Source: Halobacteriovoraceae bacterium (GTDB taxonomy: Bacteria > Bdellovibrionota > Bacteriovoracia > Bacteriovoracales > Bacteriovoracaceae). From it: DNA of 64,000 nt. Of this stretch, positions 2,441 through 37,154 are shown piece after piece (the first letter of the stretch is position 1; every line of letters starts with the position of its first letter). The notes below the pieces were generated by a model, which saw nothing but the letters and a program-made list of their open reading frames with translations, had not been told where the DNA came from and did not search any database. Where the stretch lies: the NCBI GenBank assembly GCA_002713145.1, contig PAVS01000013.1, forward strand, positions 62,001 through 126,000, in the 5' to 3' direction. Both the position numbers and the translations under genes were made by a program.

Positions 2441-3236
2441 TTTTAATCAATTCATCAATATGTTTGGGAAATTTTTTAAAGTTAAGAGTGTTTAAATATA
2501 TTTGAGGGCGCTTGATACCTTTAATCTCTTGAGTCACTAATTTGTCATCTTTTTTTATAGTATGTGCAGGAACGATGGCCACACCCACTCCTTCTTTTAC
2601 AAGTTGGATCATAGAAGTAATTGAGCCAACGGAGATTATTTGATTCGAGTGTTTTTTAAAAAGATCAAAGAAAAAGTCTTGCTCCCCAAAAGTAATCCAA
2701 GGATAGTTGGCCAAACTTCTGGTATCCACTTCTTTTTTACTAATGAGAACTATTTTTTCCTCAAACAATCTAAGAGAAGTAATCATTTCGTTTTGTATAT
2801 TCTCTGGGGTAAAGATCAAATCATAATTACCTGAAATAAGCTTGTGCTTGAGGTTAGAGGGCATATCCACTTCAATAGAGAGTTCATGAGAGGTAGACTT
2901 AACAAATTCCTTGATGATTTTAATAAACCAAGTTTCAAGCAAACCATGCAAAATCCCTATACGAATGAGCTGATTTGCATCATGGTTGATGATTTCATGA
3001 GTCAGGCTTTCAAATTGAGTGGTCGCTTGAAAAAGTGCTTTTCCCACTTCAGTAAGGAGGACTTTTTTACTAGAGCGAATAATCAATTGTTCGTTCATAG
3101 AATCTTCAAGTAATTTGATTTGTCTGGAAACCGCAGATTGTGCAATCCCTAATTCTTTAGCTGCTTGAGAGAAATTTAAATATTTAGCCGTGGTTTGGAA
3201 GGCTTTTAAATATCGAAAATCAATTTCAGATTTCAT
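2421..3236 (-). CDS. LysR-family transcriptional regulator
   Basis: 271 residues. The N-terminal winged helix-turn-helix is clear: DFRYLKAFQTTAKYLNFS, then QAAKELGIAQSAVSRQIKLLE, the LysR signature. The remainder (about residues 90-271) is the usual periplasmic-binding-protein-like effector domain, slightly short for the family (commonly about 300). It starts 3 nt after the stop of the IscA-like gene and is almost certainly cotranscribed with it, which is unusual because LysR regulators are more often divergent from their targets. The target and effector are unknown; self-regulation of the two-gene operon is a reasonable guess. Confidence 0.9.
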   Translation of the reverse strand: MKSEIDFRYLKAFQTTAKYLNFSQAAKELGIAQSAVSRQIKLLEDSMNEQLIIRSSKKVLLTEVGKALFQATTQFESLTHEIINHDANQLIRIGILHGLLETWFIKIIKEFVKSTSHELSIEVDMPSNLKHKLISGNYDLIFTPENIQNEMITSLRLFEEKIVLISKKEVDTRSLANYPWITFGEQDFFFDLFKKHSNQIISVGSITSMIQLVKEGVGVAIVPAHTIKKDDKLVTQEIKGIKRPQIYLNTLNFKKFPKHIDELIKIIQKNS

Positions 3237-3239
3237 GGA

Positions 3240-3617
3240 TTAGAACTGAGGAAGTTTAGTTTCATTTTTAAAGAATTTTCCGCGGTAACTTTTTTCGTTA
3301 GAGTTGATAAATTGAAACCCTTCGCGATCCACTTCAAAATCTTGAATATAGTCAAGTTCACCTTCTTGACAGTAAAAAGCAGTAAATGGGTCAATATGAA
3401 TATGAATAATTTTTTCGTTTAATTTCTTCTCGAGAACGATGTCGTCTTTTTCTTTGGGAGTAAAGCCAAGGGCGTAGTCGAAACCTCCACAGCCTTTTCC
3501 ATCTATTTTTAATCGAAACTCCATATCTGCAACTGTGTAGTCGTGCTCTTTAATAAGAGAGATCTGCGCCAGCGCATTTTCAGTTATATTTATCTTTATA
3601 TCGTTTTGAGTCATCAT
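3240..3617 (-). CDS. IscA/HesB-like protein lacking the C-terminal CxC
   Basis: 125 residues. The fold pattern of A-type iron-sulphur carriers is visible: ITENALAQI, then DGKGCGGFDYALGF with the first conserved Cys (residue 43), a DPFTAFYC segment and LDYIQDFEVDREGFQFINSN, equivalent to the DYVE...GF.F.NPN region. The two C-terminal cysteines of the usual CGCG motif are absent; SYRGKFF stands in that place. It has a second Cys at 83 that is not a standard ligand. It may therefore bind a cluster differently or be a non-cluster relative. It is the first gene of an operon with the LysR regulator. No strong ribosome binding site precedes the ATG. Confidence 0.75.
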   Translation of the reverse strand: MMTQNDIKINITENALAQISLIKEHDYTVADMEFRLKIDGKGCGGFDYALGFTPKEKDDIVLEKKLNEKIIHIHIDPFTAFYCQEGELDYIQDFEVDREGFQFINSNEKSYRGKFFKNETKLPQF

Positions 3618-3709
3618 GCTTTAGTTATTGGCCCTATTCATTTTCTTGAGTATTGGCTATTCTTATATCGAAATTTAGCTCGTTTTTAAACTAAATAGCA
3701 GGGGATAAA

Positions 3710-5428
3710 ATGGAAATAAAATATAGTGTTGAAATTACAGAGCCACAGACGCATCTCGTTAATGTCAAAATGACTCTAACGCGCAGTCAAGATAAGATGA
3801 CAGTCTTTCTGCCCAGCTGGTCTCCTGGTTCATATTTAATGCGGGAATATGCTCGCAATATTAGAGTGTTTAGAGCTCAAAGTTCAAATGGGGAATTCCT
3901 ATATTTTGAGCAAGTATCAAAAGGGGAATTTGAAATTGACTTTACCCAAAGTGAGCTCAAAAAAGACTGTCGTGAATTCACAGTCGAATATTCTATTTAT
4001 TGCCATGAACTCACAGTGAGAACCTCTCATGTGGATGAGTCCCATGCGTTTTTACACGGCCCTAGTTATCTTATGGGCGTAAAAGACTGTGATATTAAAC
4101 CTGTGATCCAGTTTAAGTTTCCAGGACTGTGGTCAAAATTGCATACCTCACTTAAAGATATCTCAGATCAGCGACAAGAGTTTATCTACACTGCTGATAG
4201 CTATGATGATCTCATCGATTGCCCGGTAGAAATTGGCTGTCATGAAAGTGATGGCTTCATGCATGAGGGAAAAGAACATCACCTGATATGGTATGGTGAT
4301 CAATACCCTCATGATAGAGACTTAAAAAGCGATATCAAAACAATTGTCGAAACTGTCGCCTCTCATTTTTCCAGCATTCCTTATGATAAATATATGTTTA
4401 TCACTCATTTTAAAAGAGGTCTCTATGGTGGACTTGAGCATAAGAGCTCAACTGCTTTGCATTTTGACGGACGCAGATTAGCGTGCAGAGAAGATTATAT
4501 CAATTGGCTAGGTTTAGTGGCCCATGAATACTTTCATACTTGGAATGTGAAAAGAATTAGGCCTCGTGAATTAGGTCCTTTTGATTACCTCAACGAAAAT
4601 TACACTAAAATGCATTGGCTAACAGAAGGGCTAACCAGTTTTATGGATGACCTTTTTGTCCTGCGCTCTGGTCTTTGTAGCTTAGAGGAGTATCTCAAAC
4701 TGCAAACAAAAAATCTGAAGAGATATTTTTCGACTCCAGGTAAGAAATTTCATTCCTTGGAACAGTCTTCATTTAATGCTTGGATCAAGCTCTATCGCCC
4801 AGATGAAAACTCTTTAAACTCTTCTATTAGTTATTATTTGAAAGGTGGACTTGTTTTTTCAACTCTTTATTTTGAAATGGTGAAACAAGGAAAAGATATA
4901 AAAGAGTTTCTAGAATTACTTTGGCAGCGTTACTTAGCTAACCCTGACGTGGGTATGGATTCTGAAGAAGTGCTCAAAATGATAGAAGATATGCTGGGGG
5001 CTGAAGCAAGGGGAGTCTTTGAGCAAAGAATTAGCACCACTGAGGATATCGATTTTGAATCCTATTATGCTGAGTTCGGTATGCGATTTTTATGGGAGCA
5101 AAGTGAAGCCGCACATTTAGGTGTTGATCTCAAATTCCAAGGAGATCGAGTCTTGGTAGACAATGTTCATTTAGATGGACCTGCTTATCAGTCCGGATTA
5201 AATGCCGGAGATGAAATATTATCTCTTAATAAAGTTCGTTTATTAAAGTCTGATATAAAAGAGCTTCCAAAAATGATCAAACCTAATAAAAACTATATGT
5301 TTCTGGTGAATAGACTGGGATCGATCATGAATATTGAGCTGCAAACCGGGAGAGCGCCTAAGGTTTTAAAATCAATTCTTATTGAAAATGAAGAGTTGGC
5401 GAAAAAGACCTTTTTAGGTGTGAATTAA
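3710..5428 (+). CDS. M61-family glycyl aminopeptidase-like metalloprotease with PDZ domain
   Basis: 572 residues, the usual length for the family. The zinc site is HEYFH at residues 272-276, inside HEYFHTWNVKRIRP, which is diagnostic of M61 peptidases; the third ligand is probably the Glu of LTEGLTSF (residue 306). An N-terminal beta domain precedes the catalytic domain, and a PDZ domain lies near residues 470-545 (VDNVHLDGPAYQSGLNAGDE). There is no signal peptide, so it is probably cytoplasmic. Members release N-terminal Gly or Ala from peptides. A ribosome binding site (AGGGGA) precedes the ATG. The 3' end overlaps the next, convergent gene by 4 nt. Confidence 0.9.
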   Translation: MEIKYSVEITEPQTHLVNVKMTLTRSQDKMTVFLPSWSPGSYLMREYARNIRVFRAQSSNGEFLYFEQVSKGEFEIDFTQSELKKDCREFTVEYSIYCHELTVRTSHVDESHAFLHGPSYLMGVKDCDIKPVIQFKFPGLWSKLHTSLKDISDQRQEFIYTADSYDDLIDCPVEIGCHESDGFMHEGKEHHLIWYGDQYPHDRDLKSDIKTIVETVASHFSSIPYDKYMFITHFKRGLYGGLEHKSSTALHFDGRRLACREDYINWLGLVAHEYFHTWNVKRIRPRELGPFDYLNENYTKMHWLTEGLTSFMDDLFVLRSGLCSLEEYLKLQTKNLKRYFSTPGKKFHSLEQSSFNAWIKLYRPDENSLNSSISYYLKGGLVFSTLYFEMVKQGKDIKEFLELLWQRYLANPDVGMDSEEVLKMIEDMLGAEARGVFEQRISTTEDIDFESYYAEFGMRFLWEQSEAAHLGVDLKFQGDRVLVDNVHLDGPAYQSGLNAGDEILSLNKVRLLKSDIKELPKMIKPNKNYMFLVNRLGSIMNIELQTGRAPKVLKSILIENEELAKKTFLGVN

Positions 5429-6870
5429 AGTCTCACTCGCTCTATTTTTGGTTCTCTTTTCACGAGCTCTTGCTTGATATTTTTGAGTAAAAATAAAAGC
5501 TGACTTCTTATAAGAATCCATGTTTCATCAGTCACGATGTCAGAGCTGAGAATATGAGAGAATTGAGGAGATAACTTCTCTCTAATATCTTCCTCTGCTC
5601 GTAGCACTAATATGTCCTTATTCTTTAAATAATACAAAACTTGATAGTAGCGATACATAAGATTGAGAGCTTTGATAAATTTTGAGCCAATAAGTGCCGT
5701 TTTCTGATCTAGGGAGCGAAAACGAATGACTTGGGTGAGAAAAAAATGGATGAGAGCGTGATCAAGTTGCTGAGAGTTATAATCTATAGAGGGCATTTTA
5801 TCGTTGATGGAATACGCGAGTTTATCTCTTAGCATGGGATCGAGGGGAAAAGCATAGAGATAATTTTGATTGAAAAAAACATAATGAAAACTCGGAAGAA
5901 CCCGGAGCCTGATTTTCAGGTCTTCGTTTTGCTGAGCTTTAATGAGCTCTCTCATATTTTCTTTGAGCTTGAGTGGCCTTTGTTTGGCAAAATCTTTATT
6001 CACTAAAATATCAATATATATTTTTTCTAAAAAGGCTTGCTGAGGATTGATGAGGGCAGGGGTGATCATAATATCATCGATCCAAGGGTTTTGTTTGAGC
6101 TGGGTGAGCACTTTTTCTAATATATCGGGGATAGGTAAGGATTCTTGTTCTTCAACATGAGGTTTTGTTTTTATTTCATGATACGTAAGTGACTTCCAAA
6201 TAAATCGCTCTATTTTTTGATGAAACCAAAAAGCAAGAAGGGGATAGCTTGAGATAAAGCGAAATTTTTTTTGAAAATTATCTGGCAAGGGGTAGAGCTC
6301 TGGAAAAAAATAATTCAGTGAATTGAGAGAGCGCATGAGTTTTTTTAGCTGGTTACGCTTAGAGAAAAAAGTATTTTTACGAAATAAAAAACTGTCGAGG
6401 TTTTTAAAAGCAAAATGAAGCATAGGGTAGATATTCTCAATGGGGGCTTGAAGTTTGTACTTTTTATGAAAGAGTAAACTGTCCCAAGTGATCATTTTTT
6501 GGGTGTAGTTCTGCAATATATAAGATTTGATAAAGTTTGTGTTGAACTCTTCTTTAGTTAAGATTGGGATATAATTATAATTAAAGACCAAAGAAGTGAG
6601 GGGGTGAGAGCGGATAAGATACCTCGCTCGTCTCAGGATAGTTTTCATTCGCTTTGGGTTTTTAGTGATAATCAACAAATTATAATCAGATTGACCAAAA
6701 ATGAATTGGCCGCTGGTAAAATCAGAAATGATAATAATATCTTCAATATTCTCTAGTTCAGAGAGTTGTGCCCTAAGTTTGTTTTTTGCAGCATGGTAGA
6801 TCAGTATAAGCAGTTTATTTACTAAGGGGATATAAGAAATAAATTTAATGATTTTAAATACAAACTTCAT
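5425..6870 (-). CDS. Unrecognised protein with a nucleotidyltransferase-like N-terminal segment
   Basis: 481 residues, rich in Lys, Phe, Leu and Tyr. A hydrophobic stretch lies near residues 5-27. Residues 45-70 (IIIISDFTSGQFIFGQ then SDYNLLIIT) look like the helix-turn of a polymerase-beta-type nucleotidyltransferase, G-S followed by a paired acidic motif, but here the pair reads DxN and not DxD, so activity is doubtful. The rest is helical with no motif I know. It overlaps the phosphopantetheinyl transferase gene by 4 nt (ATGA), so the two are translated together. Lipid or secondary-metabolite linkage would be an inference from that neighbour only. Confidence 0.6.
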   Translation of the reverse strand: MKFVFKIIKFISYIPLVNKLLILIYHAAKNKLRAQLSELENIEDIIIISDFTSGQFIFGQSDYNLLIITKNPKRMKTILRRARYLIRSHPLTSLVFNYNYIPILTKEEFNTNFIKSYILQNYTQKMITWDSLLFHKKYKLQAPIENIYPMLHFAFKNLDSFLFRKNTFFSKRNQLKKLMRSLNSLNYFFPELYPLPDNFQKKFRFISSYPLLAFWFHQKIERFIWKSLTYHEIKTKPHVEEQESLPIPDILEKVLTQLKQNPWIDDIMITPALINPQQAFLEKIYIDILVNKDFAKQRPLKLKENMRELIKAQQNEDLKIRLRVLPSFHYVFFNQNYLYAFPLDPMLRDKLAYSINDKMPSIDYNSQQLDHALIHFFLTQVIRFRSLDQKTALIGSKFIKALNLMYRYYQVLYYLKNKDILVLRAEEDIREKLSPQFSHILSSDIVTDETWILIRSQLLFLLKNIKQELVKREPKIERVRL

Positions 6871-7472
6871 GCTAAATTTTTAAACTCTACCGTGTGAACA
6901 TTTTTATTTTTAATATAGGACATAACAATAATCATAGACTCAGTTTTGGTAACTTGAAAGAGCTGATGGTGTGAATCTTTTTGATCTTGAAAATAAAATC
7001 TATTCTCATGCACAATTACCTGTTTGAGTAGCTTACATTCCGGGTGAAGAGAGTGCAGGGCCTTAAAACAAGCTTCTTTAATACACCATTTCTCAAGAAG
7101 AGTGTGGGATGCAAATTGATCCTGTTCATTAATAAAGTGACGATCTGACTCGGGAGCAATGGGGCGATTTATATCTTCTAGGTCCACCCCTAGACTTTTG
7201 AAATGGTTTATTGACCCCATGATAGCAATAGCCATTTTCCGATTATGAGAAAGGGAGCAGCTTAAGTGCTCATGTCCTTGGAGAGTTTGGTAGTTGGGGG
7301 TAAACTCTAATTGATAGGGGTTATGATCTTGTTGAAAATAATTTAGACAATGACCCAAAGTTTCTCTTCCCAAAAAATATTGCTTATTACGCTGTGGGTG
7401 AGAAAATTTCTGAGGTAGCTTTTGAGGTGAATAAGAATCCATGGATTGAGTTTTATAGATAATTTCTGCCAT
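6867..7472 (-). CDS. 4'-phosphopantetheinyl transferase (Sfp/EntD type)
   Basis: About 201 residues. It transfers phosphopantetheine from CoA to carrier proteins. The two family motifs are present: SLGVDLEDI (magnesium-binding Asp and Glu) and LEKWCIKEACFKA (the W..KE...K motif). The SCSLSHN segment matches the upstream conserved SxSH. I chose the ATG at 7472. An in-frame TTG at 7499 is also possible; a GAGGAG box at 7488-7493 lies 15 nt before the ATG, which is longer than ideal. The gene leads an operon with the unrecognised 481-residue protein. It could serve fatty-acid ACP or a polyketide-type carrier; the sequence does not tell. Confidence 0.85.
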   Translation of the reverse strand: MAEIIYKTQSMDSYSPQKLPQKFSHPQRNKQYFLGRETLGHCLNYFQQDHNPYQLEFTPNYQTLQGHEHLSCSLSHNRKMAIAIMGSINHFKSLGVDLEDINRPIAPESDRHFINEQDQFASHTLLEKWCIKEACFKALHSLHPECKLLKQVIVHENRFYFQDQKDSHHQLFQVTKTESMIIVMSYIKNKNVHTVEFKNLA

Positions 7473-32279: not shown

Positions 32280-32810
32280 ATGAGACTGTTTGATTATATT
32301 CAACAAGGTGGACCCATTATGTACGTTCTCCTTATATTAAATATTATTGGTTTTGCATTATTGTTTTGGAAAACTTTTATGGTTGTTGATGCTCGTAAAA
32401 ATTTCAAAGGTAATCTTTCTCTGTTAAAAGAGAAGGTGGCAGATATAATTAGTCAAAAAGATCCGGCCGTAGCCATGAATATCTTAAAGGATGAAGTTCA
32501 ACTCAGTGTCCATTCTTTAGAATCAGGATTAAATACGATCAAAATTATCGCAAGCATCGCTCCGCTTCTTGGGTTGTTAGGGACGGTCGTGGGTATTTTA
32601 TCCGCTTTTAAAGTTATCTCTGACGTTGGGCTGAGTAATCCTTCACTTTTTGCAGGTGGCATTTCAATGGCGCTTTTGACAACTGTTGCTGGGCTTATTG
32701 TGGCGATCCCTCATTTTGTAGGTTATAACTATTTAGTCAGTGCCTTAGATGATTATGAAATTCAACTAGAGAAAGAACTTGTAAAAGAAGTTTTTAATAA
32801 AGCATCGTAA
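32280..32810 (+). CDS. MotA/TolQ/ExbB proton-channel family protein
   Basis: 176 residues, short for the family but with the three membrane helices: near residues 12-32, 95-118 and 135-155. The pore-lining signature IIASIAPLLGLLGTVVGILSAF and the TTVAGLIVAIPHFVGYNYL segment are intact. It forms the stator with the next gene product and couples proton flow to envelope work. Its stop and the ATG of the ExbD-like gene share one base (TAATG). Ribosome binding site AAAAAGGA. Confidence 0.92.
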   Translation: MRLFDYIQQGGPIMYVLLILNIIGFALLFWKTFMVVDARKNFKGNLSLLKEKVADIISQKDPAVAMNILKDEVQLSVHSLESGLNTIKIIASIAPLLGLLGTVVGILSAFKVISDVGLSNPSLFAGGISMALLTTVAGLIVAIPHFVGYNYLVSALDDYEIQLEKELVKEVFNKAS

Positions 32811-33214
32811 TGGCCAGAAAATCTAGAAGAGAACATTTAACACCTGAGCTTACTCCACTGATCGATGTTGTATTTCTCCTTCTCATCTTTTTTATGGTGT
32901 CTTCTGTTTTTAAAAAAGAAGAACTAGCTCTCTTGCTCAATTTACCTAAAGCAGAACAAGGAAAATCTCAAAAGACTCAAAAGCAAGTGGTTACCATTGA
33001 GTTATCTGACGACAGTGTTGCCTACGAAGGCGAGGAAGTCACCCTTGAAAACTTAACAGAGAAAGTGACACCTCTTGCGAAAAAGACACTTATCAACCTT
33101 AGAGTGGATGGCTCCGTAAAATATGAGAGGCTTGTTTCTATCTTAGACCTTCTTCAAAAAAATGAGCTAGAAAACTTATCTTTGATTACTGTGAGAAAAC
33201 CTTCAGAGAAATGA
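32810..33214 (+). CDS. ExbD/TolR-family protein
   Basis: 134 residues. A short cytoplasmic head, then one membrane helix with the essential Asp (LTPLIDVVFLLLIFFMVSSVF), then a periplasmic domain ending LENLSLITVRKP. This is the ExbD/TolR architecture that works with the ExbB-like protein upstream. It overlaps the FecR-domain gene by 4 nt (ATGA). No TonB or TolA gene is in the window. Confidence 0.92.
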   Translation: MARKSRREHLTPELTPLIDVVFLLLIFFMVSSVFKKEELALLLNLPKAEQGKSQKTQKQVVTIELSDDSVAYEGEEVTLENLTEKVTPLAKKTLINLRVDGSVKYERLVSILDLLQKNELENLSLITVRKPSEK

Positions 33215-34947
33215 AATATTTAGTCTGTCTCTTTTTTCTTTTCACATCTCATTATGTTTACGCTGATGTAAAAGCACAGGTTCTGGTCCTGAGTGGTGAT
33301 GTGACAAAACTCGAACCGAGAAGTCATAAAGCTCAAAAAGTAAAAAAAGGTGACTGGCTCATCCAAGACACTTCTGTTGTCACGAAGGATAAAAGTTTTG
33401 TAAAAATTCGATTTAACGATGGCTCACTTATGAATATTGGTCCCAATAGTATGGTGGCCATAAATAAAATGCCCACACAAAAAGCGAGTGTGATTAAACT
33501 TTTAACCGGCGCCATAAACTCTGAAGTCAAAAAAACGAATAAGAAAAAAACGAAGCTCATTATCCGCACCAGATCCGCCATCATGGGGGTGAGAGGAACT
33601 AAATTTCAAACCAGTTATAATCACGCTAACAAGAGAACCAGTCTCGTCACAGTAGAGGGCGAAGTGGCCATGACCAAAAAAGTGAATAACAACATCAATG
33701 ACGAAAAACTCGATGAGCTTGCGGAAGTTTTTGAAACAAACTCAACGGAAGTGGTTGAGGTTAAAGCAGGAGAGTATTCAGGGGTGGCGGAAAGTATAGA
33801 AAAGCCTTATGAGCCGGTTCGTATCGCTCCTGAGCAATACAATGCTCTGGCAAAAACCATGGACTCAAAGCTTACGGCCACTGATGTTATGAGTGCAAGC
33901 GAAGATAAAGATGCAGCTAATGCAAAATACAATGATAAAAAAATAAAAATAAAGCCAAAAGCAGGTGGCTATGTTGATTTCAATACAGGTCTTTATGTTG
34001 AGCCTCTTGCTACGGCAAAATTTGATGAGAGTACTGCGACTTATACTGCTACTGAAATTGGATCGATTAATACATCATCAGCTGATTATATTCCCCCTAA
34101 AGGGTTAAAAGTTGATGAGGTAAAAGGCTTTGTTGTTGATGAACGAGCGGAAGAGCCAGATCGAAAAGCTGCGAGTGAGAAATTGCAAGAATTAAATCAA
34201 AGTATCAAAGCGCAAGTCACGCCTGTTGAAAAAATCAATAAAAACTCAACCAAAAAGCCACAAGAGAAAAACCATTCTTGGGGACCAAAAGCTCAATCAT
34301 TTTCACTTGCATTCATGCCTTACGGTGAAAAAATGCACATTGTTGCCGATGATTTTGATCTAGATACTGAAGTTGAAAGTGAGAACGCCAATTGGCTGGT
34401 ATTTCATTGGCAGCATTATTGGAGTGAGAACTGGAGTACAAGTTTTAAGTTGGGGAAACAAGATTACCAATTTAAAGAAGAGTTTAGAAAAGATCACGAT
34501 GATAATGGGGATAGTTTATTTGCTCTTGGAGTTAAAAGAAAATTAACCCCAAAGCTTTGGGTTCAATTAGAATTTGAAAAGAGAAATGAAGTGGTGATCG
34601 TGCCTGAGTTTTTTGGTGATGAAGGTGAGGGAAGAATCGAGAACAATGAACTTGATTACTTTAATTTAAGATTAGAGTACTTGGCCTATCAAAAAGAAAA
34701 ATCAGCTTATTACCTTTTTCTTGCTTATCATAAAGCAGAAGATAAAAACTTTGCGACTCTAGATGAGTTCACTAAAGATTCACGCATTTCAGGATTTAGC
34801 TTTCTACTTAACTGGAATTATCAGTTCTCTCAAAAGTGGAGTTCTTCAGCGGGGTTTAGAATCAGACAAATTGATGTCATTAATAATGATGTCGAAATCA
34901 TGAAAGAAGAAGCTGGTTTGAACCTTGCTCTGACATATAGCATCTAA
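33211..34947 (+). CDS. FecR-domain protein with C-terminal outer-membrane-like barrel
   Basis: 578 residues. Signal peptide MKYLVCLFFLFTSHYVYAD. The FecR domain lies near residues 20-150 (VVTKDKSFVKIRFNDGSLMN, IRTRSAIMGVRGTKF, LVTVEGEV). A low-complexity linker runs to about 350. The last 220 residues alternate in beta-barrel fashion (aromatic-ended strands such as NWLVFHWQHYW, LDYFNLRLEYLAY, GFSFLLNWNYQF) and end in TYSI. It follows the ExbB/ExbD pair with 4-nt overlap, so this may be the energised envelope partner. The FecR-to-barrel fusion is unusual in my knowledge; no TonB box can be named. Confidence 0.8.
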   Translation: MKYLVCLFFLFTSHYVYADVKAQVLVLSGDVTKLEPRSHKAQKVKKGDWLIQDTSVVTKDKSFVKIRFNDGSLMNIGPNSMVAINKMPTQKASVIKLLTGAINSEVKKTNKKKTKLIIRTRSAIMGVRGTKFQTSYNHANKRTSLVTVEGEVAMTKKVNNNINDEKLDELAEVFETNSTEVVEVKAGEYSGVAESIEKPYEPVRIAPEQYNALAKTMDSKLTATDVMSASEDKDAANAKYNDKKIKIKPKAGGYVDFNTGLYVEPLATAKFDESTATYTATEIGSINTSSADYIPPKGLKVDEVKGFVVDERAEEPDRKAASEKLQELNQSIKAQVTPVEKINKNSTKKPQEKNHSWGPKAQSFSLAFMPYGEKMHIVADDFDLDTEVESENANWLVFHWQHYWSENWSTSFKLGKQDYQFKEEFRKDHDDNGDSLFALGVKRKLTPKLWVQLEFEKRNEVVIVPEFFGDEGEGRIENNELDYFNLRLEYLAYQKEKSAYYLFLAYHKAEDKNFATLDEFTKDSRISGFSFLLNWNYQFSQKWSSSAGFRIRQIDVINNDVEIMKEEAGLNLALTYSI

Positions 34948-35123: not shown

Positions 35124-35140
35124 TTGAAGGGGGAACTATC

Positions 35141-37096
35141 GTGCAGAGAGTTAGGAAGAATTTTTTACTATTGCTCTGTGTAATTTTCTCTATACCTGCA
35201 ACTACAATGGCTCAAGTGGATGATGATCTGATTTCAGATTTATTAGACATCCGGGAAGAAGACAAGTTTTTGGTATACGGTAATTATGCAGAAGTTGAAA
35301 TCACGTCAACTGAGAGTGTTGATGTTGAGTTCGCCAATGATCAAGTCGTTCCATACGGAATGGATTTAGAAAAAGTAAGTGACACATCTTTTCTTATTTC
35401 TGGTTATCCAGATTTCTTAGGAAAGTTATGTTTTTTAGTTAATGCTAGAAAATTAAATGGAAATCAAACCATTGAAAGACTTTGTCTTTATGCTGAAGAA
35501 AATGAAAACATCGAGTACCCAAAAATTTCTACGGATCGATTTTTAGATTCAGTAAAAGTTGGAAATTCTTTTAAGCAACAAGTTCTTGTGAGCTCACAAA
35601 AAAGAGTAGAGTCTCTTGTGATCACTGAACTTCCTGCTGGTGTTTATGAAACTCCAGGTCTATCAGGAGTTGAATTGAGTGGATCAGTTAACGAAGCTGG
35701 AAGTTATGAGTTTGTTATCATGGCCAAAGAGGTGGACTCAGATGTACGAAGCTATAAACAGTTCATCCTTGAAGCCTATCCTGAAACAAGAACTTATCAA
35801 TGTCCACTTGGCTACTACTACGATGAGTACCTAGGGTACTGTGTACAAGTTGGTGGTGTTCAATGTCCTAGTGGAACATTCTACGATAATAATAGAAATA
35901 CCTGTGTTAATTTTCCAAGCCATAGAAGTTGTAGAGTAGGTAGCTATTATGACACTTGGTTGAATCGTTGTGTAAGACTAAATCATAGAAGATGTCCTCT
36001 AAATTATGAATACGATAGTTTTTATGGAAGATGTACTAGGCTTCCTTATACCTGTTCTATTGGGCAACGCTATAACTATAACACTCGTTCATGTGTGAGA
36101 GTTTATAGAAGTAGGGCCTGTGGCATTGGAACTCACTACGACTCTTATAGAGGAAGATGTATTCCTAATTTCAATGCTTGTCGCAGAGGTGAGTTTTGGA
36201 ATGGTAGAAGATGTGAAGTGACCATTAGAGCGAATAGATGTCGTGGTAACACATATTATGATCCAAGAACGAATAGCTGTTTAAGACGTCATGTAAACAG
36301 AACATGCCGTGGGGGACAAGTTTGGAATCATAGACAAGCGAGTTGTGTGAGAAGACCTATTGTTGTGAATAGAACTTGTCGCGGTGGCACTCGTTGGTCA
36401 TCCAGGGCCAATAGATGTGTCTCTCATGATCCAACAAGAATTAACCGTCATCCAAGAAGACCGAACCGTCCAACAACAAGACCGGGTCAATCAAGACCGA
36501 ACCGTCCAACAACAAGACCGGGTCAATCAAGACCTAACCGTCCAACGACGAGACCAGATCGTCCAAGACCAAACCGTCCAACCACGAGACCGGATAGACC
36601 GAGACCTAACCGTCCAACAACAAGACCAGATCGTCCGAGACCTAACCGTCCAACCACAAGACCAGATCGTCCGAGACCTAACCGTCCAACCACAAGACCA
36701 GATCGTCCAAGACCTAACCGTCCGACAACAAGGCCTGATCGTCCGAGACCTAACCGTCCAACCACAAGACCAGATCGTCCAAGACCTAACCGTCCAACCA
36801 CAAGACCAGATCGTCCAAGACCTAACCGTCCAACGACAAGACCTGATCGTCCAAGACCTAATCGTCCAACGACGAGACCGGATAGACCAAGACCTAACCG
36901 TCCAACGACAAGACCGGATAGACCAAGACCTAACCGTCCGACAACAAGACCAGATCGTCCACGGAGAAGAGGTGGCTCAACCACTAGGCCAAGTCGACCT
37001 AGCAGAAGTAGCGGCTCAACAGCTAGGCCTTCAAGACCTAGTAGGGGAAGCAGTGGGAGTAGTGGAAGTAGAGGAAGAAGACGTCCCAGAGATTAG
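35141..37096 (+). CDS. Secreted Cys-rich protein with Arg/Pro 12-residue repeats
   Basis: 651 residues, GTG start with GAAGGGGGAA upstream. Signal peptide ends near residue 28 (IPATTMAQ). Residues 30-215 are beta-rich with no cysteine pattern. From about 218 to 432 about ten modules of about 20 residues each carry C-x-x-G-x(3)-YD-x(5-7)-C, for example CPSGTFYDNNRNTC. From 441 to 608 fourteen repeats of PNRPTTRPDRPR follow (first two end GQSR), then a Gly/Ser/Arg tail. The arginine content makes the tail strongly positive, so binding to DNA, lipopolysaccharide or another polyanion is a fair guess. I do not recognise the protein. A terminator follows. Confidence 0.85.
   Translation: MQRVRKNFLLLLCVIFSIPATTMAQVDDDLISDLLDIREEDKFLVYGNYAEVEITSTESVDVEFANDQVVPYGMDLEKVSDTSFLISGYPDFLGKLCFLVNARKLNGNQTIERLCLYAEENENIEYPKISTDRFLDSVKVGNSFKQQVLVSSQKRVESLVITELPAGVYETPGLSGVELSGSVNEAGSYEFVIMAKEVDSDVRSYKQFILEAYPETRTYQCPLGYYYDEYLGYCVQVGGVQCPSGTFYDNNRNTCVNFPSHRSCRVGSYYDTWLNRCVRLNHRRCPLNYEYDSFYGRCTRLPYTCSIGQRYNYNTRSCVRVYRSRACGIGTHYDSYRGRCIPNFNACRRGEFWNGRRCEVTIRANRCRGNTYYDPRTNSCLRRHVNRTCRGGQVWNHRQASCVRRPIVVNRTCRGGTRWSSRANRCVSHDPTRINRHPRRPNRPTTRPGQSRPNRPTTRPGQSRPNRPTTRPDRPRPNRPTTRPDRPRPNRPTTRPDRPRPNRPTTRPDRPRPNRPTTRPDRPRPNRPTTRPDRPRPNRPTTRPDRPRPNRPTTRPDRPRPNRPTTRPDRPRPNRPTTRPDRPRPNRPTTRPDRPRPNRPTTRPDRPRRRGGSTTRPSRPSRSSGSTARPSRPSRGSSGSSGSRGRRRPRD
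36461..36964 (+). repeat. 36-bp tandem repeat, 14 units, within the coding region
   Basis: Fourteen exact-length 36-bp units encoding PNRPTTRPDRPR (first two units end GQSR). Units differ mainly at third codon positions, so the amino-acid sequence is kept better than the DNA. This indicates selection on the protein, not only recent copying. The repeats create spurious long frames on both strands. Confidence 0.97.
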
Positions 37097-37126
37097 AAAA
37101 TAATCTCTAGTCCTAAATAAGTTTGG

Positions 37127-37154
37127 CCCTCGCTTTTATGAGCGAGGGTTTTTT
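37127..37154 (+). terminator. Rho-independent terminator after the repeat-protein gene
   Basis: Perfect 8-bp stem CCCTCGCT / AGCGAGGG with a 6-nt loop (37127-37148), then six T. Confidence 0.92.

Follow-up and report, generated by a model that had tools for sequence, protein, structure and literature searches.

What does an exported protein that joins a string of cysteine modules to a long arginine- and proline-rich tail do for a bacterial cell, and which of its parts carries that role? The question is raised by a gene in a 64,000-nucleotide stretch of the genome of a Halobacteriovoraceae bacterium (GenBank assembly GCA_002713145.1, contig PAVS01000013.1, positions 62,001 to 126,000), hereafter called the window. 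A preliminary description of the locus took the positively charged tail to be an extracellular binder of polyanions such as DNA, LPS or cell wall, possibly an adhesin used on prey or surfaces. Our analysis confirmed what that description had observed and partly supported its interpretation. The gene belongs to a family without a Pfam or NCBIfam name that is found phylum-wide in Bdellovibrionota.

Architecture of the exported protein

The open reading frame coincides exactly with the limits of the gene (table), begins with a GTG start codon and encodes 651 amino acids. From the N to the C terminus the protein comprises a signal peptide, two Ig-like domains, ten hairpins and a 219-residue Pro/Arg tail, and the 22 Cys of the mature form consist of C97/C115 in the first Ig-like domain and the ten hairpin pairs. 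The aligned orthologs have a hydrophobic N-terminal stretch that is closed in most of them by an A-x-A type site (AYA/Q, SFA/Q or TMA/Q, the slash marking the cut). Export of the window protein and its orthologs, as the preliminary description proposed, is a prediction well supported by these sequences. A missing export signal or a gene absent from all relatives had been named as grounds for dropping that description; the signal is present and the gene occurs in relatives.

Features of the hairpin-string gene, its neighbours in the window and the partner membrane protein loci in other genomes
Feature	Location	Strand	Basis
Gene for exported Ig/hairpin-string/Pro-tail protein	35141..37096	+	single gene with own terminator; orthologs
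Shine-Dalgarno-like AAGGGGG	35127..35133	+	direct sequence reading
Signal peptide, residues 1-24, predicted cut TMA/Q	35141..35212	+	predicted from sequence; orthologs mostly have an A-x-A site too
First Ig-like (He_PIG/cadherin-like) domain, residues ~35-122, with invariant pair C97/C115	35243..35506	+	AF2 pLDDT ~85-90; Foldseek to Ig tandems; invariant Cys
Second Ig-like domain, residues ~143-213	35567..35779	+	AF2 pLDDT ~90; profile similarity to 6dms and 4m03 Ig-like modules
Ten predicted disulfide hairpins, residues 221-426, partial CBM_14 matches	35801..36418	+	sequence; AF2 models with a hairpin per Cys pair
Pro/Arg tail, 219 aa, 27% Pro, 32% Arg, pI 12	36437..37093	+	composition
Fourteen 12-residue (36-bp) tandem repeats within tail	36461..36964	+	Tandem Repeats Finder and codon comparison
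Intrinsic terminator, strong (hairpin and T-run)	37125..37150	+	
ExbB and ExbD genes, syntenic upstream neighbours (context)	32280..33214	+	Pfam; synteny
FecR-domain/beta-barrel-like protein, immediate upstream neighbour (context)	33211..34947	+	Pfam
Partner membrane protein, other genomes	L023 11558-14749; L027 2733-5876; G307:C56:90939-94031; G248:C121:4160-7231		downstream of Met-rich-tail orthologs
Partner membrane protein at contig starts, other genomes	G142:C12; G277:C9; G234:C109; G287:C249; G081:C65		

The Ig-like domains, which occupy residues ~35-213 or one third of the window protein, were absent from the preliminary description. In an AF2 model built from an alignment of 13 orthologs the tandem has a pLDDT of ~85-92, Foldseek returned many Ig tandems as neighbours of this region (E <= 1e-7), and the region is predicted to adopt an Ig-like beta sandwich. 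The He_PIG model (PF05345) did not match the window protein, and the best E value obtained, in 3 of 13 members, was 0.012. The Ig fold and an LPxGl...Gtp..aG.y.f pattern are shared with He_PIG/cadherin-like Ig domains such as those of SraP (4m03) and GH107 fucoidanase (6dms); unlike them, the window family is weak against Pfam and carries an invariant Cys pair of its own in the first domain.

The ten Cys modules counted in the preliminary description stand, although the spacing of their motif had to be corrected. Residues 219-428 hold 10 occurrences of the pattern C-x2-[GND]-x2-[YFW]-[DNS]-x3-5-C; when the same residues were shuffled 5,000 times, the mean count was 0.012 and no shuffle had more than 1. 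The modules read C-x2-G-x2-[YFW]-[DNS]-x5-C, with C-x12-C in nine of the ten and C-x10-C in number 7; N replaces G in two, and YN, WN or WS replaces YD in four. Two Cys were present in every one of 310 full-length modules of the family. Each Cys pair brackets two strands (strand-turn-strand) in AF2 models of moderate confidence. The model of the hairpin string is of low confidence (pLDDT 67, pTM 0.35), and no significant neighbour emerged when modules 1-5 were used for a fold search, the weak ones being Cys-rich rods (megalin, insulin receptor, TNFR) at E > 0.1.

Hairpin 1 is nearest to hairpin 1 of other genomes in 81% of comparisons and hairpin 4 to its counterparts in 69%, where ~10% is expected by chance; for hairpins 6-9 positional identity is little above chance. 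The front of the array is thus ordered and individually conserved and the back is looser, and the positional identity of hairpins 1 and 4 across the phylum makes the array more than mere repetition. The core can be aligned across the phylum, and the alignment contains invariant Cys, G, P and Y positions.

The window tail holds 71 Arg and 13 acidic residues and ends in a Ser/Arg-rich stretch. Its fourteen 12-residue Arg/Pro repeats, reported earlier, are in perfect 36-bp register, with two copies of PNRPTTRPGQSR followed by twelve of PNRPTTRPDRPR, and Tandem Repeats Finder gave a period of 36 and 14.0 copies. Minority bases are distributed 6/4/36 over the three codon positions, and units 3-14 are identical in protein (pS 0.38), almost all of their DNA differences being silent. 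The claim that the repeat DNA varies mostly at third positions therefore holds, and selection on the protein sequence of the repeats is supported by this codon comparison.

Comparison of the hairpin with CBM14 and other disulfide folds

The Pfam CBM_14 model (PF01607) matches 13 of 13 family members. The whole window protein scores 43.5 bits and its hairpin region by itself 51.2 bits, both above the cut-off of 22.1, but these scores are sums of partial, half-domain matches, and in a six-frame search with the model no single stretch scored, the window gene included. The match was gone in five shuffles with the Cys fixed, so the resemblance is sequence-specific. The family modules have the C-x12-C hairpin that is a feature of the C-terminal part of CBM14, where human chitotriosidase CHIT1 forms the disulfide C450-C463 (PMC4844120). 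The sugar-contact Trp of CHIT1, W465, lies two residues past the last Cys (PMC4844120); Trp is found at this position in 1.6% of the 310 modules and any aromatic residue in about 5.5%. Of the six Cys and three disulfides that a CBM14 domain holds in ~50-70 aa, the family modules, with two Cys each, can retain only one. CBM14 membership was rejected on the Cys count and the missing conserved Trp, despite the sequence-specific match. What the family shares with CBM14/peritrophin-A domains (tachycitin, 1DQC; CHIT1, 5HBF) is the C-terminal hairpin, with C-x12-C, G at +3, an aromatic residue at +6 and D/N at +7, whereas it has neither the other two disulfides nor the three-stranded sheet, nor the conserved Trp that follows the last Cys.

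Against the PDB the module profile gave weak matches to the Aplysia polyphenol-binding protein 8in3 (E 0.0014), contryphan-Vc1 (E 0.085) and the CBM14 protein Blo t 12, 2mfk (E 0.52). The solved contryphan-Vc1 (2n24/5kkm) is a stand-alone hairpin with the same pattern (C-x12-C, G+3, Y+6, N+7); it is a free cone snail peptide, in contrast to the 6-15 tandem hairpins of these bacterial proteins, and no common origin is claimed. The stand-alone single-disulfide hairpin fold is named among the references of PMC9963005. By its sequence, we class the module as a single-disulfide hairpin whose likeness to the CBM14 hairpin reflects either relatedness or convergence, and not as CBM14. Peritrophins and intestinal mucins combine Cys modules (hairpin/CBM14) with Pro/Thr-rich low-complexity tracts, a layout like that of the window family, which differs in being bacterial, in having Ig domains in front and in carrying an Arg/Pro tail instead of O-glycosylated Thr.

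Hairpins of this type are not confined to the family: unrelated exported proteins of the phylum carry one or a few of them, often with Pro-rich linkers. An exported protein that is DUF4360-like by eye (L116, 2115-2999) has an (RP)n linker followed by one C-terminal hairpin, CPPGFRWNPRRQIC. Other exported proteins of two genomes (L145, L146, L147, L148 and L149 in G341 and G350) carry 1-5 such hairpins, mostly with Pro-rich linkers, and no recognised enzyme domain was attached to them. Genome G002, from the same genus as the window, is without the hairpin-string gene; at L115 it has a different exported Arg/Pro-repeat protein (NRPHRPDRDRTV, 6042-6989) near a protein that starts with a single hairpin (KECQDGHRYDSNLNRCV, 3128-5128).

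Distribution, neighbourhood and tail chemistry of the family

An alignment-based search recovered the family from 35 of 369 Bdellovibrionota genomes, representing 32 of 182 genera and about 15 families, and a search of its own family with the window protein as query found the gene in 13 of 129 genomes. The architecture is constant, with two Ig-like domains, 6-15 hairpins (usually ten) at C-x12-C spacing and a Pro-rich tail. Named carriers are uncultured Halobacteriovoraceae, Bacteriovoracaceae, Bdellovibrionaceae and Bdellovibrionales and one Oligoflexales; an alignment scan of named genomes gave 12 loci and a single-sequence scan gave no match. None of the NCBIfam families reached E <= 0.1 with the window protein or with either of two orthologs, plasmid and viral collections contained no relatives, and a literature search found no prior description of the family.

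ExbB-ExbD genes lie upstream of the hairpin gene in six genomes, and outside part of family f1 the gene does not adjoin them. In G018, G012 and G139 the permease-DedA-ExbB-ExbD-FecR-PPase block is intact and the hairpin gene is absent; G140, congeneric with two of these, has the gene there. At three syntenic empty sites (L112, L113 and L114) a membrane pyrophosphatase directly follows ExbB-ExbD-FecR/barrel with no hairpin gene. The hairpin-string gene is an accessory gene. The FecR protein, whose C-terminal half is predicted to be beta-barrel-like, is matched in 103 of 125 genomes of the family, making it a common envelope protein of the family in its own right. A partnership with ExbBD/FecR was rejected on this frequency and on the persistence of the block without the hairpin gene in the three genomes above.

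The tail unit differs between species, being RPTTRPDRPRPN in the window and KKPGP, RPEPRPQPVP, RRPTARPTRSPS, PTSTRPP, MPMPDPMPFP or MPMPPGP elsewhere. Many tails are incomplete because several draft contigs break inside them, and the complete ones have 122-266 residues. Pro content in the 29 readable tails is 15-63% (median 40%), and net charge per 100 residues exceeds +5 in 24 and is -7 to +3 in the other five. Neutral or acidic tails follow the same core in L050 (pI 4.1), L043 (pI 4.9) and L060 (pI 4.1), and the unit MPMPDPMPFP occurs at pI 4.1. Since unit and charge vary while the tails stay Pro-rich, it is Pro-richness that is conserved, Arg being one solution among several, and a family-level constraint on Pro-richness and length argues for an extended spacer. 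The step from a positive tail to a polyanion binder is not supported as a family function, as five of the 29 tails are near neutral or negative and all are Pro-rich. Short two-Cys motifs (CRGRDC, CTGGRC, CRDRRNC) were seen at the C-termini of the L018, L058, L061 and L013 proteins, where they possibly add a further disulfide or a cross-link to the tail tip.

In four genomes, all with Met/Pro tails, the hairpin gene is directly followed by a gene whose ~1,050-residue product combines MFS, spermidine-synthase-like and TPR regions. In G142, G277, G234 and G287, where the partner gene is on another contig, that contig opens with what reads as a Met/Pro tail end, and in G081 such a tail end likewise precedes the partner gene; these tail ends at contig starts make the two genes adjacent in nine genomes. 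The G081 contig start (L192, 1-700), in which polyphenol-oxidase-like coding sequence is joined to the tail end in another frame, is probably an assembly chimera. G209 has two Met-tail copies and the partner gene elsewhere. The partner was also present in the remaining Met-rich-tail genomes, and the non-Met genomes searched yielded none but one weak partial match. Where tail Met is at least 10% the partner is present in 9 of 9, and below that value it is absent in 21 of 21. Phylum-wide, 10 of 12 genomes with a close partner homolog carry the hairpin gene against 1.1 expected (p 9e-10), the remaining two being cut by contig ends, and a test for independent origins did not reject a single clade (p-AU 0.235). 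The window's own genome is without the partner. In the SpeE-like domain of the partner GYGGGYT stands for GGGDGG and SQPSHSW for DSSDP, and with these catalytic motifs replaced canonical aminopropyl transfer, as in a spermidine synthase, is unlikely. A literature search turned up no described role for this membrane protein family.

Proposed role and alternatives

Our tentative proposal is an exported rod, stiffened by disulfides, in the envelope or on the surface of the cell; a stiff rod is probably a better description than simply a DNA- or LPS-binding polycation. The constant architecture, the Ig tandem and hairpins of the AF2 models, the 22 Cys, the positional identity of hairpins 1 and 4, the CBM_14 matches that shuffling abolishes, the stand-alone contryphan-Vc1 hairpin, tails that are all Pro-rich with different units and the joint occurrence of hairpins and Pro-rich linkers elsewhere count in its favour; the low-confidence model of the hairpin string and its lack of a significant fold neighbour count against it. 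The protein would be exported by Sec, and its ten C-x12-C pairs and C97-C115 would oxidise in the periplasm. The Ig domains and hairpins would then form a semi-rigid string, the specific binding part, whose Tyr/Trp-rich hairpins may make many weak contacts, most likely to sugars, for example GlcNAc polymers from peptidoglycan or chitin. The rarity of aromatic residues at the CBM14 contact position speaks against sugar contact, as does the finding of no fusion of hairpins to a glycan hydrolase. The tail would be extended and polyproline-II-like, with a length of at most ~68 nm if each residue adds 0.31 nm, and would span the wall/LPS layer as a spacer or tether. In the window species its Arg probably adds electrostatic holding to LPS phosphate or other polyanions; the positive charge would be a lineage-specific addition and not the core function.

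The earlier reading makes the Arg/Pro tail itself the binding part, which would hold DNA, LPS or teichoic acids and attach the cell to prey or surfaces. It draws on the excess of Arg over acidic residues in the window tail, the net positive charge of 24 of the 29 tails and the purifying selection on the repeat protein sequence. It has to contend with the same-core orthologs that have neutral or acidic tails and with a distribution that, as far as genome names tell, does not follow predation, the carriers including the Oligoflexales genome and many environmental genomes without known predatory habit. We consider it unlikely in general; for the window species it is possible, and it is not what the family conserves. 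Peritrophins and cyst-wall lectins cross-link GlcNAc polymers, and every hairpin might likewise be a working CBM14-type site in a multivalent chitin or peptidoglycan lectin. The CBM_14 scores, the CHIT1-like disulfide spacing and the retrieval of 8in3 and 2mfk point in this direction. The summed half-domain nature of those scores, the single remaining disulfide and the missing Trp point away from it, and such a lectin seems to us quite improbable.

Proline-rich antimicrobial peptides have an (RP)-rich composition that the window tail resembles, and a secreted antimicrobial was considered on that account. It is very improbable given the acidic and Met/Pro tails of orthologs and the attachment of the tail to a large conserved folded core with no processing site seen. 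Pro-rich spacers are a hallmark of TonB, and a periplasm-spanning coupler powered by the adjacent ExbB-ExbD would fit both the X-Pro repeats, which TonB and other Pro-rich periplasmic spacers use as an extended spacer, and the six genomes with ExbBD upstream. The topology largely refutes it, as the protein has a cleavable-type signal peptide in place of a TM anchor, gave no Pfam TonB match and has a free C terminus without the TonB C-terminal domain; the gene also lies away from ExbBD outside part of family f1, and ExbBD-FecR is retained where the hairpin gene is absent. A coupler of this kind is extremely improbable.

The envelope rod might also be modular, with tail chemistry swapped between lineages and matched to a partner, although we regard this extension as a long shot. 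Arg/Pro or Lys/Pro tails would need no partner, whereas Met/Pro tails would be modified, charged or secreted by the MFS/SpeE-like/TPR protein, for example by alkylation of Met to a positive sulfonium, and encoded and added charge would serve the same function. The link between Met tails and this protein provides a concrete, testable partner for MFS/SpeE-like/TPR membrane proteins. In the family, an ordered hairpin array is deeply conserved while the sequence and charge of the tail are free and its proline content alone is kept. The family is a natural experiment in the requirements of a disordered tail, and it cautions against inferring function from the tail charge of one species.
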